NCBI RefSeq assembly: GCF_018141165.1
Contig: NZ_CP058557.1
Coordinates: forward strand, 2,480,001 to 2,544,000
DNA: 64,000 nt
Source of the DNA: Alkaliphilus sp. B6464
Lineage (GTDB): Bacteria; Bacillota; Clostridia; Peptostreptococcales; Natronincolaceae
Direction: 5' to 3'
In this document: positions 39,792 to 46,213 of the stretch, piece after piece
Numbering within the stretch: position 1 is the first letter of the stretch
How the letters are laid out: each line of letters begins with the position of its first letter
Translations under genes and position numbers: made by a program
Notes under the pieces: model-generated
What the model was told of the DNA's origin: nothing
Seen by the model: the letters and a program-made list of their open reading frames with translations, nothing else
Database searches by the model: none

Positions 39792-39920
39792 CCTTATTAT
39801 AAATAATATAAATATAATATAGCTTATACAATTATATAAGTACATGCACATATATAGACTTCAGAACATATTATTTAAAGTGACATACTATTTAGGTTTT
39901 TAAGGGAGGAGATGATCTAC

Positions 39921-40277
39921 ATGTGGCCGATATTACTAAGTTTATTTCCCGTTACACTAAAGCCAATATTATTTTTAGTATCTTACGTTTCTAGCAGTAC
40001 ATCTTTTCCACAGCCATTAACACCAGAAGAAGAAGCAATGTATTTAGAACAATACGAGCAAGGTAATGAAGAAGCTAGAAATATATTAGTGGAAAGGAAT
40101 TTACGGCTTGTGGCCCATATTGTAAAGAAGTATTCTAATATTGGCCGAGATATGGATGATTTAATTTCTATAGGTACTATTGGATTAATTAAAGGAATTA
40201 CTACCTTTGATAGATCAAAGGGAACAAGACTTGCAACTTATGCTGCAAGGTGTATTGAAAATGCTATACACTCCTAA
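39921..40277 (+). pseudogene. sigK: sigK N-terminal part, interrupted by skin element (functional after excision)
   Basis: Encodes the first 114 residues of sigma-K, then five element-derived codons ending at TAA 40277. From ATG 39921 (GGGAGGAG 9 bases upstream; ATG 39912 is the alternative) there is a hydrophobic pro-sequence of about 21 residues ending ILFLVS, then [17 protein letters not shown] as in B. subtilis pro-SigK. Region 2 follows: [34 protein letters not shown] and [11 protein letters not shown]. The break after Asn is where B. subtilis sigK is split. A CATACTAT at 39884-39891 resembles a sigma-E -10 box. It is not a dead gene; see the skin element. Confidence 0.93.
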
Positions 40278-40286
40278 CGGAAACAT
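40263..40286 (+). repeat. Left terminal inverted repeat of skin (attL half-site)
   Basis: Twenty of 24 bases match the reverse complement of 45823-45846, with identical GCTATAC at the outer end and ACGGAAACAT at the inner end. It overlaps the end of the recombinase gene and the five element-derived codons at the end of the first sigK part. In the excised circle the two repeats would flank the crossover as a palindromic attP. Confidence 0.85.
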
Positions 40287-41944
40287 TATTCTGTTTCCCA
40301 TGGTGGAACTTGCTTTTTTTCTGAAATACTACCGAACATAATTATTTCTGCATTTTTACCATTCCAGATTATTTTATCAACTATAATTTTAAGGAATGCT
40401 CTTTTATCTTCTATATCCATTAAGTCAACACTATGATTAAAATTCGAGAGTATACCTTTCATAACATCAAGACTATTTTCTTTAGCTTGATTTTTTTCTT
40501 GTACTTCTTTAAGTCTTAGAAGTCTATCTTTAATTTGGGTAGTTTCTTTATCTAATCCTTCAATCTGATCAATAATATATTTTGCAGCTGTACTGTTTTG
40601 ATTTTGTGATAGGGAACTAACTAGATTGCCTATAGATTGCCCATTATTTTTAATATTAGATTCTAGCATGGATATTTCATTTTCAATAGCATTTTGGGCT
40701 GTCTGAAGGCTAATTTTATCATTTTCAATACTATCCTGTACATCTGAATTTGACATAGCTAAATTTTTAATTCTATCAATAATCAAGTGATCAAGTTCAT
40801 TACCTTTTATATTTTTAATATTACAACGAGTTCTTTTACTTTTTTCCTTCATTTCGCACATATAATAAAAGATTTGTTCACCATCTTTATTTTTTCTTCC
40901 CATTTTAGGACGCATATAACTTCCACAGTTGCAATAAAGAACTCCAGATAGTAAACTATTAGTATTTTTAACTCTCCTATATCCCTTAGATTTATTCTTA
41001 TACAATAGATTTTGTGCTTTAATCCAGGTAGTACTTTCAATGATTCCTTTATGTGCTCCAATGGCTACTATCCACTCTGACACGTCTCTAAACCTAATAG
41101 AACTTTTACTATCTTGGTTAGTTTTATTATACGCCATTATTCCATGTTTGCCGGTAAATTCACTTTCGTGAGAGTAAACTTCATATCCATTATCTATTAT
41201 GTAATCATACATAGCCTTATCTGCTACTGCATAAACAGGATTAGCAAGAATAGATCTGATAGAGTACCTGGTAAAATCAACGTCATTTTTACTTTTAATA
41301 TTATTCATAATTAGGTATTGTTCAACTTTTGTTAAAGATTTAAATTCTAAATATTTATCGAATATCAATCTAACTATTTCTAATTCATTATCAACAGTAG
41401 ATAGTTTAAACATTTTTCTCTCCTTTCCGGAAGGGTCCGTATAAATAATTTGTTTAGAAGAATATCCTGTAGGAGTTATTCCACCAAGCCATCTTCCGGT
41501 CTTAGCTAGTTGAAGCATATTATCCCTTATACGTTCAGCAGCAGTTTCACGTTCTAATTGTGCAAACACAGAAGATATATATAGCATAGCTTTACCCATA
41601 GGTGTAGAAGTATCAAATTGTTCTTTAATAGACACAAAACCTACTCCATTACTTTCTAATGTTTCAAAGGTGTTAGAAAAGTCCATAACACTCCTACTAA
41701 TACGGTCCAGTCTGTAGCAAATAAGAATATCAAACTTTTTCTTTTTAGCATCTTTCATAAGTAGCTGAAATTGAGGTCTATCAGTATTTCCTCCAGAAAA
41801 ACCTTCATCTTCATAAATATAAAAATCATCATCTTTTATACCAAAGTGAGTAGTAGCATAGTTTTTACATAGCTGTATCTGATTTTCTATACTATCACCT
41901 TTACCAGTAAATTTTGATTTTCTTGAATAAATTGCTACTTTCAT
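40286..41944 (-). CDS. spoIVCA: Large serine recombinase, SpoIVCA-like
   Basis: The product has 552 residues from ATG 41944 (SD AAGGGGTGA; GTG 41953 lies in that SD). The N-terminal resolvase domain has the nucleophile in MKVAIYSRKSK (Ser7), then YEDEGFSGGNTDRPQF and CYRLDRISRSV. A recombinase domain follows (TPTGYSS to about 280). A zinc ribbon has LYCNCG and YYMCEMKEKSKRTRCN, and a C-terminal coiled coil controls directionality in such enzymes. Its stop overlaps the left repeat. It is inferred to excise the element in the mother cell and rebuild sigK. Confidence 0.93.
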   Translation of the reverse strand: MKVAIYSRKSKFTGKGDSIENQIQLCKNYATTHFGIKDDDFYIYEDEGFSGGNTDRPQFQLLMKDAKKKKFDILICYRLDRISRSVMDFSNTFETLESNGVGFVSIKEQFDTSTPMGKAMLYISSVFAQLERETAAERIRDNMLQLAKTGRWLGGITPTGYSSKQIIYTDPSGKERKMFKLSTVDNELEIVRLIFDKYLEFKSLTKVEQYLIMNNIKSKNDVDFTRYSIRSILANPVYAVADKAMYDYIIDNGYEVYSHESEFTGKHGIMAYNKTNQDSKSSIRFRDVSEWIVAIGAHKGIIESTTWIKAQNLLYKNKSKGYRRVKNTNSLLSGVLYCNCGSYMRPKMGRKNKDGEQIFYYMCEMKEKSKRTRCNIKNIKGNELDHLIIDRIKNLAMSNSDVQDSIENDKISLQTAQNAIENEISMLESNIKNNGQSIGNLVSSLSQNQNSTAAKYIIDQIEGLDKETTQIKDRLLRLKEVQEKNQAKENSLDVMKGILSNFNHSVDLMDIEDKRAFLKIIVDKIIWNGKNAEIIMFGSISEKKQVPPWETE

Positions 41945-41984
41945 TAAATTCACCCCTTAGATATATTATAAAGTATTTTATAAA

Positions 41985-42008
41985 AACAAAAAGCCCTTTA
42001 ATGGGCTT
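41985..42008 (-). terminator. Terminator of the lipoprotein gene
   Basis: AAGCCC (41991-41996) and GGGCTT (42003-42008) pair around 6 bases; the flanking A-rich run reads as a T-run on the minus strand. Confidence 0.75.
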
Positions 42009-42035
42009 CTCATATAAAAAACATATAATAAAGAT

Positions 42036-42611
42036 TTATTCAAACAGTTTTGACATATCAGCTAAATTACCAGTTATAGCGTTAGTAAAATCGTCACTAG
42101 GATTTATTATCCAGTTGTTATTTTCTTTAACTAAATCTATTTTAACTGTTTTCTTTACCATAGGCATATCATCACTATTCACTTTATCCAAAAGCATTGT
42201 ATTCATTAAATCATCTATATTATCTTCGGATTTATCTTCCTTAAATGCAGCTGCAAAGGCTAAAGGTAATGCTTCTTGAATTAGTTCAGTCATAATTTTA
42301 CCTAAGTTAGGGCCATTTATTTCAGTTTCTACTGTAGCAGTATCTCCATTTACTTCTGAACTTAATATCTTATAATTCAGTTTACTATATGCCTTTAAAA
42401 ATGCTTCCTCATTCATTTTATTTTCATTATTGAATACCTCTTTTACTTGGTCTTCGGAATCAGACTTTATATATTTATTCATTCCTTCTATATTGCCAGA
42501 TTTTAATGCATCTAAATATCCACTAACACTAGCTTTTGGGTCTGATTTTGCACAAGCAGTCATACTAAAAACTAACGCAATAATAAGTAATGCAGATAAA
42601 AATTTCTTCAT
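42036..42611 (-). CDS. Lipoprotein, skin cargo
   Basis: The product has 191 residues from ATG 42611: MKKFLSALLIIALVFSMTAC, a lipoprotein signal with Cys20, then a domain of about 170 residues (DPKASVSGYLDALKSGNIEG, WIINPSDDFTNAITGNL) like the NTF2-fold lipoproteins DUF4878/DUF5105. An ATG 12 bases earlier falls next to the AAAGGA and is less likely. Probably anchored outside the membrane. A function in sporulation is not evident. Confidence 0.8.
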   Translation of the reverse strand: MKKFLSALLIIALVFSMTACAKSDPKASVSGYLDALKSGNIEGMNKYIKSDSEDQVKEVFNNENKMNEEAFLKAYSKLNYKILSSEVNGDTATVETEINGPNLGKIMTELIQEALPLAFAAAFKEDKSEDNIDDLMNTMLLDKVNSDDMPMVKKTVKIDLVKENNNWIINPSDDFTNAITGNLADMSKLFE

Positions 42612-42941
42612 AAAAAAATACATTCCTTTCGATTTAAAATGTTCTGCTAAATTTTAGTATATTAATACTAGCTACATTATATATGGACTCTATTGAAAAA
42701 AACATCAAACTTTGTCGAAAGAAAAAATGTTTATATTATAAATGAAGAAGGCCATAAGGTCTTAAATGAAATGAAGAAAGATACTAAACAGAATCTAACT
42801 AAGCTATATTGATTTCTTTAAAATTAGTATTAATATACTTGGTACATTTTCATTTGAAATTTTCAGAGTTAATTATAGCTTAATTTTTGAATAGGACAAA
42901 ATGCATAAAACATAAGATTTATTATTAAGGGGGGTGGCAAA
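42612..42941. other. Gap inside the skin element with a possible relic
   Basis: At about 42730-42810 a plus-strand frame reads NVYIINEEGHKVLNEMKKDTKQ before stopping, without a start or SD. It may be the tail of a lost gene. The region must also hold the promoters of the divergent lipoprotein and the 67-aa gene. Confidence 0.35.
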
Positions 42942-43145
42942 ATGGCGAAGGAGCCTGCTATAAGCATAACAGTAAAAGGACTAGAGACAAAAGAAGATAG
43001 AGAGTATTTTAGTAAAAAGTGTGCTGAATTTTGGATGGAGATTATATCTAAAAAAATTAGTGAGTTGCCAATAAGCCACGAAAACAAAGTAGAATTTGCT
43101 AAAGAGGTAGTTGAAGAAATACATAAAAAATCAAAGAAGATTTAA
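42942..43145 (+). CDS. Small charged protein (67 aa), skin cargo
   Basis: AAGGGGGGTG lies 6 bases before ATG 42942. Sequence: KEPAISITVKGLETKEDREYF then a helical, Lys/Glu-rich rest (KVEFAKEVVEEIHKKSKKI). No signal peptide and no family recognised. The strong ribosome site argues that it is expressed. Confidence 0.6.
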   Translation: MAKEPAISITVKGLETKEDREYFSKKCAEFWMEIISKKISELPISHENKVEFAKEVVEEIHKKSKKI

Positions 43146-43595
43146 GTTACCATGAGAAGAAGGTTCAACCAACCTACAGACAAGGTAAAATTTACATGTT
43201 AAGGTGTAAGAAAAGCTAGATAGTTCTCCCATTAGAGACTGTGAAAAAATTCTATTAGGTGTGGAACATACTAGGGCTTTTATGTTGGATAATATTATTT
43301 ATTTTATATACATATAAACCAAATTTACAGTAAGATTGCATAAAAAGTAATCAAAAAGACATCAAAAAGTAACTGAAATGTAAATTAAGCTTAGTATAAT
43401 GACATTATAGAGATTGATAGCTTAGAAAGAAAATGTTTCATCCCCTTTATTTAACCTCACCGGGACTTACTCGGTGGGGATTTTTTTATTACTCAAAACT
43501 AGATAAAATTATGAAATACGCAATAAATTGTTTAGCAATGGCTATTATCAAAAAAACAATTATTATAGTATATACTTGCAAACAGTATTAAAAGG
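43146..43595. other. Gap inside the skin element
   Basis: Around 43152-43220 a short frame (MRRRFNQPTDKV, then after a frame change IYMLRCKKS) looks like a broken small gene. A plus-strand terminator stands at 43455-43487. Near 43345-43375 AAAAAG-containing units repeat imperfectly. Nothing else is supported. Confidence 0.4.
43455..43487 (+). terminator. Terminator inside the skin element
   Basis: CCTCACCG (43455-43462) and CGGTGGGG (43472-43479), then ATTTTTTT. Confidence 0.8.
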
Positions 43596-43630
43596 AAAGA
43601 CTCTATAGTGTTTTTTTATAGAGTCTTTTT
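43596..43630. terminator. Terminator of the minus-strand 174-aa gene
   Basis: Perfect 12-base arms AAAGACTCTATA (43596-43607) and TATAGAGTCTTT (43617-43628), placed between the plus-strand terminator and the stop of the minus-strand gene. Confidence 0.8.
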
Positions 43631-43643
43631 CCTTAAGAGAGTT

Positions 43644-44168
43644 TTAAAACTGCTCTGTACAATTATTTAGGAATTGTTTAACTATACCTTTTGCCATCAC
43701 ATCAGCCATTTGTAAAGCTTGTTTTTCAATCTTGTCGTATACTGTAATGCTATCTTCATACCTTTTTGTAAGCATATAAACAGCTTCAGATTTAGTCAGT
43801 GCCAAGTGTTCATATAGCATTGTTCTCCAGTCTTCCTCAGACCAATATGGGTTGATACTACCAAGGAAAGCGGCAATTTCATCTGCGTTTGCATACCATC
43901 TTTTTTCAGTCTCAGCTACTGCTTCTGTATTACCTGCCTTAGCTTCTTTGACAAGTTGCGCAGCGATGACAAGATGACTTGTAAGTAAATCGGCAAATTG
44001 GGAGGCGATTTTATCTCCATAAAAAGGCTTTAGAGCTGACTCAAAGTCTTTAGGATTTCTGAGAAGACGATTAATCACAAAGTCTACATCTGGTAAATCA
44101 AAAACAATACTAACAATGGCCAGCCTGGTCCAAACAACGTGTTGTACCCAAAGCATACGCAATTGCAT
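43644..44168 (-). CDS. Conserved protein of unknown function, probably N-terminally damaged
   Basis: A 174-residue frame with segments LRMLWVQHVVWTRLAIVSIV, LLRNPKDFESALKPFYGDKIA, RWYANADEIAAFLGSINPYWSEEDW and YEHLALTKSEA. This matches a common Bacillus/clostridial family, often mislabelled acetylglutamate kinase, of unknown role. The Met at 44168 has no SD. The frame is open six more codons upstream of it but then stops, and a LysM-domain reading frame overlaps the 5' end. The present start therefore looks like a scar of a deletion, and expression is doubtful. Confidence 0.65.
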   Translation of the reverse strand: MQLRMLWVQHVVWTRLAIVSIVFDLPDVDFVINRLLRNPKDFESALKPFYGDKIASQFADLLTSHLVIAAQLVKEAKAGNTEAVAETEKRWYANADEIAAFLGSINPYWSEEDWRTMLYEHLALTKSEAVYMLTKRYEDSITVYDKIEKQALQMADVMAKGIVKQFLNNCTEQF

Positions 44169-44259
44169 AAATGGTAGTATGGTATCTTTGAGCTAATATC
44201 CATAATGTGTCATATGGCTGAATTGTATAAGGAAATGTTTTTGTTGGATATTGGCACAT
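44110..44259 (-). pseudogene. LysM domain fragment
   Basis: ATG 44259 follows GTGGTGAT at SD distance and reads MCQYPTKTFPYTIQPYDTL then WILAQRYHTTIYAI. This is a clear LysM start (YTIQ.GDTL..IAQRYNTT pattern, with Tyr in place of Gly). The LysM sequence then stops being recognisable, and the frame ends at 44110 inside the next gene in another frame. A deletion appears to have joined a LysM protein gene to the family of unknown function downstream. LysM proteins bind peptidoglycan and are common in spore coats. Confidence 0.7.
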
Positions 44260-44708
44260 ATTTAATCACCACTTTCGTAATTTCTATATATTACTGTATG
44301 ATTATGTAAATAAAAAAATGCTATTCTAACTACCTTTATATTTGAAAAGGTGATAAATTTGGAAAACTAACTAAAGAGTAATTAATAGAATTGGTATTAA
44401 GGTTACATAAGTCACTGGCCATTAAATTACATCAATGTAGTACTAAGTAAAAAAAGAAAAAGAAAATGAGTACTAAATTAATCATCATTAGGGTTGAGCC
44501 TTTCTAAAACATCAGATTTGAAGAATAATCCATTATTAGAGAAAACCTTAATTAGAATCAATTTATCTCGTTTAACTAGACCATCTATATTTTGATTTCA
44601 AAAAATTTTAAATAAAATTCACCAAAATACAATTATAGAATATTATGTACTAGGCAAAAGGACAATGAGATTGTAGACATCATAAAAGACTGATAGGAGG
44701 AAATAAAA
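44260..44708. other. Gap inside the skin element
   Basis: No intact gene. Near 44343-44440 a plus-strand frame with a GGTGAT site reads LGKLTKE, stop, LIELVLRLHKSLAIKLHQ, a likely nonsense-damaged relic. The promoter for the 44709 gene must lie in the right half; no clear box is seen. Confidence 0.4.
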
Positions 44709-45542
44709 TTGGATAATAGAGAAGTTTTCATAAATAAAAGAGATGTAGAGTGTCATAATAATAAATTTGAAAATGCTGTGGTACACAAAAAACCTGAAAG
44801 TAAGACATCTTGCGTTGAAGTTAAAGCTGAAACTCTAGGAGATTGTGAAAATAATCCAGTAAGATTAAACCCAATTACAGCAGGTGTTGTAGCGAAAATA
44901 CCAGTAGTTTTAGCTGAGTTAACAGTTCGGTTCAATGTTAATGCAAAAATTGATCTGCCTGAGCCGGCTATTGAAATTAAAAGGATTAAGAAAAAGGTAA
45001 AAATAGTTCAATGTATGCTTATACAAGATACCGACATTTTATTTATTAAAGGATTTGTTCGTAAAAACATTGAATTTGCTACAAAAGAATGCTCACATCA
45101 TCACGGAATGTGTGGAGATATTCGCCATTGCACAGTAGATGTTCCATTTGAATGTACAACTGTTGTTAAATTTAATGGTACACGTCCAGCACCTCTTATT
45201 ACTAATACATCAAATGAGTTTGAATTTTTTACATCAAAAGAATTATCAAATGATTTTGCTGAAAAAGATAGACTATTATCAGGAGATCTATCAGAATTTA
45301 ATCAAATCAGCACAGAGTTTTTCAATGAACTAACATTTTGTGAATTAATAAGTGCTAAAATTGTTGAATTTGATGAGTTTTTACATCGTGAACGTCCGAA
45401 ACATACAGATCTACCTGTAGGAGAAAAACTATTCACAAAAATTGAAGAAAAAATGGTTATAGCTATTACACTTAAAATTTTACAAAACAGACAGGTTGCA
45501 ATTGGTCGAACTAGTAGAGAGTGCCTGACAGAGCAAGAATAA
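44709..45542 (+). CDS. SPOCS-like putative spore protein, skin cargo
   Basis: The product has 277 residues from TTG 44709, 8 bases after AGGAGG. The core (about 55-165: AGVVAKIPVVLAELTVRFNV, LPEPAIEIKRIKKKVKIVQC, LFIKGFVRKNIEFATKEC, GDIRHCTVDVPFECTT) resembles the SPOCS-type domain of clostridial spore-coat and exosporium-related proteins. Cys/His pairs (CSHHHGMC) are notable. The C-terminal part (LLSGDLSEFNQISTEFFNEL, LFTKIEEKMVIAITLK) is conserved in clostridial relatives remembered. A spore location is inferred. Its place inside skin would link it to sporulation. Confidence 0.65.
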   Translation: MDNREVFINKRDVECHNNKFENAVVHKKPESKTSCVEVKAETLGDCENNPVRLNPITAGVVAKIPVVLAELTVRFNVNAKIDLPEPAIEIKRIKKKVKIVQCMLIQDTDILFIKGFVRKNIEFATKECSHHHGMCGDIRHCTVDVPFECTTVVKFNGTRPAPLITNTSNEFEFFTSKELSNDFAEKDRLLSGDLSEFNQISTEFFNELTFCELISAKIVEFDEFLHRERPKHTDLPVGEKLFTKIEEKMVIAITLKILQNRQVAIGRTSRECLTEQE

Positions 45543-45551
45543 TATTTTACT

Positions 45552-45581
45552 AATAGGGTATGTAAAACTACATGCCCTATT
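45552..45581 (+). terminator. Terminator of the SPOCS-like gene
   Basis: AATAGGGTATGTA (45552-45564) and TACATGCCCTATT (45569-45581) pair with one wobble around AAAC. Confidence 0.8.
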
Positions 45582-45822
45582 CTATTATTATATAGAAAAG
45601 AACACTAGATAAAAATATATTGTACTTCCATACTATGTTGCGTATAAAAATGTGTGAATGATTTGTTGAAAATATATTAAAAAACAAAAAATAAAACTTT
45701 TTCCTATTATGATCCATATAATACTTATAATAAAAACGAATTAAGGTATAATTTTATTTTACCACCAACGGTTGATAAATTTGATATACTTTTTAATATA
45801 TCCATAGTTTGAGTATAGTAAT

Positions 45823-45846
45823 ATGTTTCCGTAATGTGAGTATAGC
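45823..45846 (-). repeat. Right terminal inverted repeat of skin (attR half-site)
   Basis: Reverse complement matches 40263-40286 at 20 of 24 positions, ending one base before the shared AAATG. An extra direct copy of GAGTATAG lies at 45811-45818, repeating 45838-45845, possibly an accessory half-site. Confidence 0.85.
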
Positions 45847-45847
45847 A

Positions 45848-46213
45848 AATGAAATATTGATGACCATTAGATCGAACAAGAAAATTAAAACTGAAGTATC
45901 GCTACAAGATCCTATTGGAGTAGATAAAGAGGGCAATGAAATATCGTTAATTGATATATTAGGAACCGACCCAGATGAAGTAGTAGATGAGGTAGAACTA
46001 AAAATGCAAATTAAAAAGCTATATTCTAAGATGGCTAGTGTATTAAAGTCAAGAGAACGGGTAGTGATAGAACTCAGATATGGAATATGCAATGGTGGGT
46101 CTAAAACGCAACGTGAAATTGCCAAGATGCTAGGTATTTCAAGATCCTATGTTTCTAGAATTGAAAAAAGAGCAATAAAAAAGTTAAACAAAGCATTGAA
46201 TGGAAATAATTAA
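45848..46213 (+). pseudogene. sigK: sigK C-terminal part (functional after skin excision)
   Basis: The frame is open from a TTG at 45809 inside the element, but sigma-K sequence starts at the Asn/Glu codons 45848-45853. EILMTIRSNKK, VSLQDPIGVDKEGNEISLIDIL (region 3) and KTQREIAKMLGISRSYVSRIEKRA (region 4.2 helix-turn-helix) match SigK closely. Alone it lacks regions 1-2 and cannot bind core or the -10 box. Joining to 39921-40262 gives 114 plus 120 residues. A weak hairpin terminator follows at 46212-46245. Confidence 0.93.

Follow-up and report, generated by a model that had tools for sequence, protein, structure and literature searches.

The element within sigK

The window analyzed here is a stretch of 64,000 nucleotides from Alkaliphilus sp. 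B6464 (NZ_CP058557.1, positions 2,480,001 to 2,544,000). Within the window, sigK is split at 40263/45851 by a skin element of 5,588 bp (40264–45851). The sequence AAATG lies within an identical codon context at both breakpoints, and joining the flanks at this common core restores the reading frame, giving a sigK of 237 codons with the C terminus ...ALNGNN. In genome G002, sigK is uninterrupted and reads RCIENEILM at the core position. The features of the locus, in window coordinates, are the following.

39912–40263 (+): 5′ part of sigK, core included; TIGR02846 (spore_sigmaK) positions 2–113, joined ORF of 237 codons
40259–40263 (+): left core AAATG (attL); core and codon position identical in the skin elements of relatives
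40286–41953 (−): large serine recombinase (integrase/excisionase), 555 aa; PF00239, PF07508, PF13408; phrog_95 integrase, E 4e-115
42036–42623 (−): lipoprotein-like protein, 195 aa; LPAM_1 at E 0.49 only, no family above cut-off
42890–42918 (+): SpoIIID-like box (ATAGGACAA) and sigma-E-like −10 (CATAAGAT, 42911–42918), by consensus, upstream of the 67-aa gene
42942–43145 (+): 67-aa protein, candidate recombination directionality factor (RDF); conserved beside matching integrases
43644–44168 (−): ORF truncated at its 5′ end, with no Pfam model for its family; relatives are longer and start earlier
44110–44259 (−): half a LysM domain, broken gene; PF01476, 25.4 bits against a cut-off of 20.9
44621–44647 (+): sigma-K-type promoter of csxC; −35 AC at 44621–44622, 16 nt, −10 AATATTATG at 44639–44647
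44709–45542 (+): csxC, exosporium-type protein, 277 aa, TTG start; NF045794, 261 bits, cut-off 135
45552–45581 (+): intrinsic terminator-like stem-loop after csxC; 13-bp stem, then a T-rich tail
45847–45851 (+): right core AAATG (attR); matches the left core, flanks joinable
45852–46213 (+): 3′ part of sigK; TIGR02846 positions 108–226, joined ORF

An initial annotation had placed a lipoprotein, a small protein, a LysM fragment and a SPOCS-like protein gene in a skin element and had considered this set as partly spore-related cargo. The match of both sigK halves to TIGR02846 and the joined ORF confirm that the whole set lies inside an element splitting sigK, and the ORFs of the lipoprotein-like and the small protein are real. 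As spore cargo, these two do not hold up; both look like genes of the element itself. The recombinase shares 98% identity with that of the sister species G001, and the lipoprotein is 94% identical in the G001 skin element and 48% identical in G029. In the latter (L015, G029:C1:959202-963806), the relative of the lipoprotein directly adjoins a related integrase outside sigK, so that the two genes seem to travel as a pair. The 67-aa protein adjoins the matching integrase in G001, G002, G003 and G115, with 51%–91% identity (91% in G001). Upstream of its gene, ATAGGACAA and CATAAGAT are conserved in G000 and G001, largely in G002 and partly in G115, and their resemblance to the consensus suggests that they are SpoIIID and sigma-E sites. 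In position and size the protein resembles CD1234, the excision factor of the Clostridioides difficile skin, which is driven by sigma-E and SpoIIID and whose gene alone is down-regulated in sigE and spoIIID mutants (PMC5025042). Given the SpoIIID- and sigma-E-like sites and the control of CD1234, the 67-aa protein is likely the excision factor.

The LysM fragment is likewise real, but not as functional cargo. Its match covers only profile positions 1–24 of 43 and belongs to no intact gene, running out of frame into the truncated ORF at 43644–44168. Relatives of the product of this ORF in other Firmicutes are stand-alone proteins of ∼185–204 aa that start ∼15–35 residues earlier. The family, which has neither a Pfam nor an NCBIfam model, was found in 20 of 199 sampled Firmicutes genomes, the organism's own included (loci L125–L129), and on eight plasmids; it was not found in 40 close relatives. 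Half a LysM domain out of frame with a truncated ORF whose relatives stand alone is therefore taken as the debris of a broken gene.

csxC, its promoter and its paralogs

The gene at 44709–45542, preceded by the ribosome-binding site AGGAGG (44695–44700), belongs to the CsxC family, with a match to NF045794 (NCBIfam) over the full profile (1–203, E 9e-78). The ORF noted earlier thus stands, and the profile search places its product in a spore-envelope family and not in a phage or unrelated one, but the name SPOCS does not stand. No Pfam match to PF12673 (SPOCS/SipL) was found at E ≤ 1, and a genome search with PF12673 gave one three-domain SipL-type protein per genome, which is not the product of this gene. 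The predicted structure of CsxC is all-beta, of low confidence (pLDDT 62.5) and without a clear match among PDB chains. CsxC is named for a cysteine-rich protein of purified Clostridium sporogenes exosporium, the only species for which the exosporium location of the family is known (PMC4942563). The C. sporogenes protein and skin CsxC have the NCBIfam family, the presence of cysteines and a length of ∼275 aa in common (PMC4942563); the cysteine counts differ, with ten against 14, and, unlike C. sporogenes CsxC, one copy here lies on a mobile element. In a scan of named genomes, the organism's own left out, the other carriers of csxC were only distant ones with 39%–56% identity, in Bacilli, Desulforamulus and Desulfotomaculum.

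A promoter of the form AC-N16-AATATTATG is conserved in the paralogs and upstream of csxC across the order; in the skin copy, AC (44621–44622) is followed after 16 nt by AATATTATGTACTAGG. Of 28 regions upstream of csxC genes, 25 contain the motif AC-N15..17-[AC]ATANN[AT]T, where Markov shuffles give 2.4 on average, and 17 contain a stricter motif with TGTA, where 0.04 would be expected. Matches lie mostly 54–78 nt before the start codon, with one at 20 nt. A generic consensus score failed to tell sigma-K apart from shuffles in these upstream regions, whereas the positional motif test succeeded. Sigma-K promoters of C. difficile are marked by AC at −35, and their −10 resembles the sigma-E one (PMC3789822); the skin copy has AC at −35 and [CA]ATANNNT at −10. 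From this consensus and the gene family we infer a sigma-K promoter. Since csxC is a member of a spore-envelope family and its sigma-K-type promoter is conserved, spore-envelope cargo in the skin is the best reading, although in a narrower form than first proposed: it holds for one gene, csxC (NF045794), and leaves out the LysM fragment, the lipoprotein and the small protein.

The genome of 3.86 Mb contains four copies of csxC, and the other three, at ordinary loci, are 94%, 88% and 77% identical to the skin copy. Under random placement of four copies, ∼0.006 would be expected per 5.6 kb. The copies have ∼110 bp upstream and ∼150 bp downstream in common, indicating that the gene moved with its promoter and terminator. 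Skin CsxC stops five residues before its nearest paralog, without the last two cysteines of that copy, and its C-terminal region GRTSRECLTEQE sets it apart from the other three. Given three further copies, the skin copy may be redundant. It could also be a passive passenger, a duplicate that entered the element by accident and makes no contribution of its own, its apparent constraint reflecting recent common ancestry or gene conversion with the other copies. The identity of the copies at ordinary chromosomal places, the near-identical stretches of csxC that break the G001 assembly and the lack of csxC in most skin elements of relatives are in keeping with such a passenger. The skin branch itself, however, carries ten synonymous and seven nonsynonymous changes relative to the outgroup copies (dN/dS ∼0.19, Fisher p = 0.0007), and by this measure purifying selection acts on the branch of skin csxC itself. 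In addition, its promoter, ribosome-binding site and terminator are intact, and it has been retained in the element across speciation. We therefore consider a mere passenger rather improbable, at perhaps one chance in a few.

Interrupted sigK genes among relatives

Elements at the same codon of sigK are present in 16 further genomes (116–118 relatives examined): G001, G003, G005, G016, G023, G034, G040, G045, G051, G066, G093, G098, G103, G107, G111 and G115. Their size ranges from 2.2 kb, with the recombinase and one small gene, up to 44 kb. In G001, the same sigK element contains csxC along with YmaF (PF12788) and small proteins of the glycine/cysteine-rich kind. At its end, contig C6 of this assembly carries the recombinase, the lipoprotein, the 67-aa protein, a methyltransferase, the remnant of a holin and the initial 54 codons of csxC. 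Contig C5 has at its end the final 135 codons of a csxC, followed by a small protein rich in FFFLLL/glycine, YmaF, part of a LexA-N and the 3′ part of sigK. The contigs break inside csxC because the csxC copies are alike, and we infer from order and orientation that C6 and C5 join across this break. Although csxC is present in 30 of 118 relatives, it lies within a sigK element only in G000 and G001, that is, in two of the 17 genomes cut at this site, the two sister species. The csxC cargo is thus lineage-specific, and a general claim that skin elements carry spore genes is not established.

The other same-site elements vary widely in content. G003 has a 34.6-kb, apparently complete prophage in the sigK site, with tail, terminase and portal-like genes (L067/L115), and the 44-kb element of G016 has conjugation-like genes (L077/L116/L117). 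The elements of G066 and G040 each have two large serine recombinases and a gene that combines LysM, Cu_amine_oxidN1 and a SleB-like hydrolase (L075 8472–9449 and L076 8576–9553). In the remaining same-site elements examined, the only recognized spore-structure gene is an FTSW/RODA/SPOVE gene, found in G093. The sigK elements at L130 (G093), L131 (G079) and L118 (G115) enclose genes for CapA (PGA_cap) and metallophosphatase; they were rejected as envelope cargo since a CapA gene adjoins sigK in other relatives. Outside the genus, the nearest related integrase and small gene are those of G003 and G115. The recombinase and 67-aa protein of the window have their closest counterparts in the sister species, followed by G002, G003 and G115, and the element is therefore best read as a reduced prophage.

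Several genomes have sigK interrupted twice (L072 in G107, L079 in G103, L080 in G023, L118/L066 in G115, L113/L114 in G001 and L133/L134 in G045), once by an element of the type found in the window and once more by a distantly related recombinase ∼36 codons further on, apparently at the C. difficile-type site. Two removals would thus be needed for sigma-K. In G001, where sigK is also cut this second time, the second element (L113 3649–6309) encodes a Coat_F protein (PF07875) and a further small protein of coat-like type, together with an Amidase_3 fragment and a small protein that is glycine/cysteine-rich. The organism's own genome has a relic of the sigK 3′ part outside the window (C1:2560544–2560777; L136 16544–16777), 34 kb downstream of the intact 3′ part, with 95% identity over 78 aa (tblastn) and one stop codon in a match. 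It adjoins a gene for an FFFLLL/glycine-rich protein (L136 14927–15229) and is probably left over from a second sigK element. Two genera of a single family have the recombinase flanked by sigK halves on opposite strands, and their AAATG cores are inverted.

7433–10192 of L081 (G034:C3:264000-278000): inverted-halves locus
3717–13504 of L080 (G023:C65:42000-61000): inverted-halves locus

In G034, inversion of a segment of ∼2.2 kb rebuilds an intact sigK of 240 aa. In these two genomes, activation of sigK may depend on inversion and not on excision, or the arrangement may come from a wrong assembly or a strain mixture. In Escherichia coli, CD1231 of C. difficile inverts DNA with a reversed attP (PMC5025042).

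Origin and role of the csxC cargo

With reasonable though not full confidence, the element is read as a decayed skin-type prophage that keeps its recombinase and probably its excision factor and has gained a duplicated host csxC that serves sporulation. The gene would have been acquired as a host duplicate along with its own promoter and terminator. Production of the excision factor would start in the mother cell under the control of sigma-E and SpoIIID, and the element would leave as a 5.6-kb circle, making sigK whole. Sigma-K could then transcribe the chromosomal csxC copies as well as the skin copy from the circle, and the CsxC protein would go to the exosporium. To judge from the sequence, the element probably adds to the spore formed after its own excision.

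Skin elements are usually regarded as dead prophages whose sole contribution is a gate on sigK. If the reading given above is true, the element supplies structural spore cargo as well as this gate, its retention has a reason in csxC, and a terminal cell makes useful transcripts from a circle that has been excised and does not replicate. More tentatively, and with the odds somewhat against it, the sigK element of this lineage may be a host-serving developmental gene island: its excision would yield sigma-K, which would go on to read genes of exosporium and coat type, both on the circle and in the second G001 element with Coat_F. Such an element would help to build the spore that carries it on.

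The csxC gene might instead have come with the ancestral phage as a moron, which would suit the prophage descent of the element and the holin remnant retained in G001. However, no CsxC was found in 50,697 phage records or in a pattern scan of viral contigs, the related G003 prophage lacks csxC, and the skin copy groups with the host paralogs and has their promoter, making this origin very improbable. Equally hard to credit is a SPOCS-domain or other envelope protein without a spore role, since the likeness to SPOCS profiles is very weak (at most 9 bits by hmmsearch, reached in other CsxC sequences) and hhalign against SPOCS domains, at 0.3% probability, led us to reject this identity, in line with the Pfam result, the strong CsxC match and the sigma-K-type promoter.

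Several known systems resemble the element of the window in part. The skin of Bacillus subtilis is a decayed prophage of ∼48 kb with arsenic resistance, which splits sigK at what we take to be the same codon region as the element in the window, and we know of no exosporium gene in it. In the literature covered, which took in few subscription journals, no account was found of a skin element that contains csxC or any exosporium gene. The arsenic resistance of the B. subtilis skin is encoded by an ars operon (PMC8951512). The C. difficile skin likewise has a large serine recombinase and a small excision factor and splits sigK, which is rebuilt by excision, but it uses a different sigK site and has 19 genes, with no csxC reported (PMC5025042). 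SP-beta in spsM of B. subtilis is similar in its developmental excision, its recombinase with a small RDF and its tie to the spore surface; there, in contrast, the interrupted host gene itself makes the spore surface, while in the window csxC is cargo (PMC4191935). The prophage genes of SP-beta most likely have no mother-cell promoters (PMC5025042), whereas csxC in the window has one of the sigma-K type.
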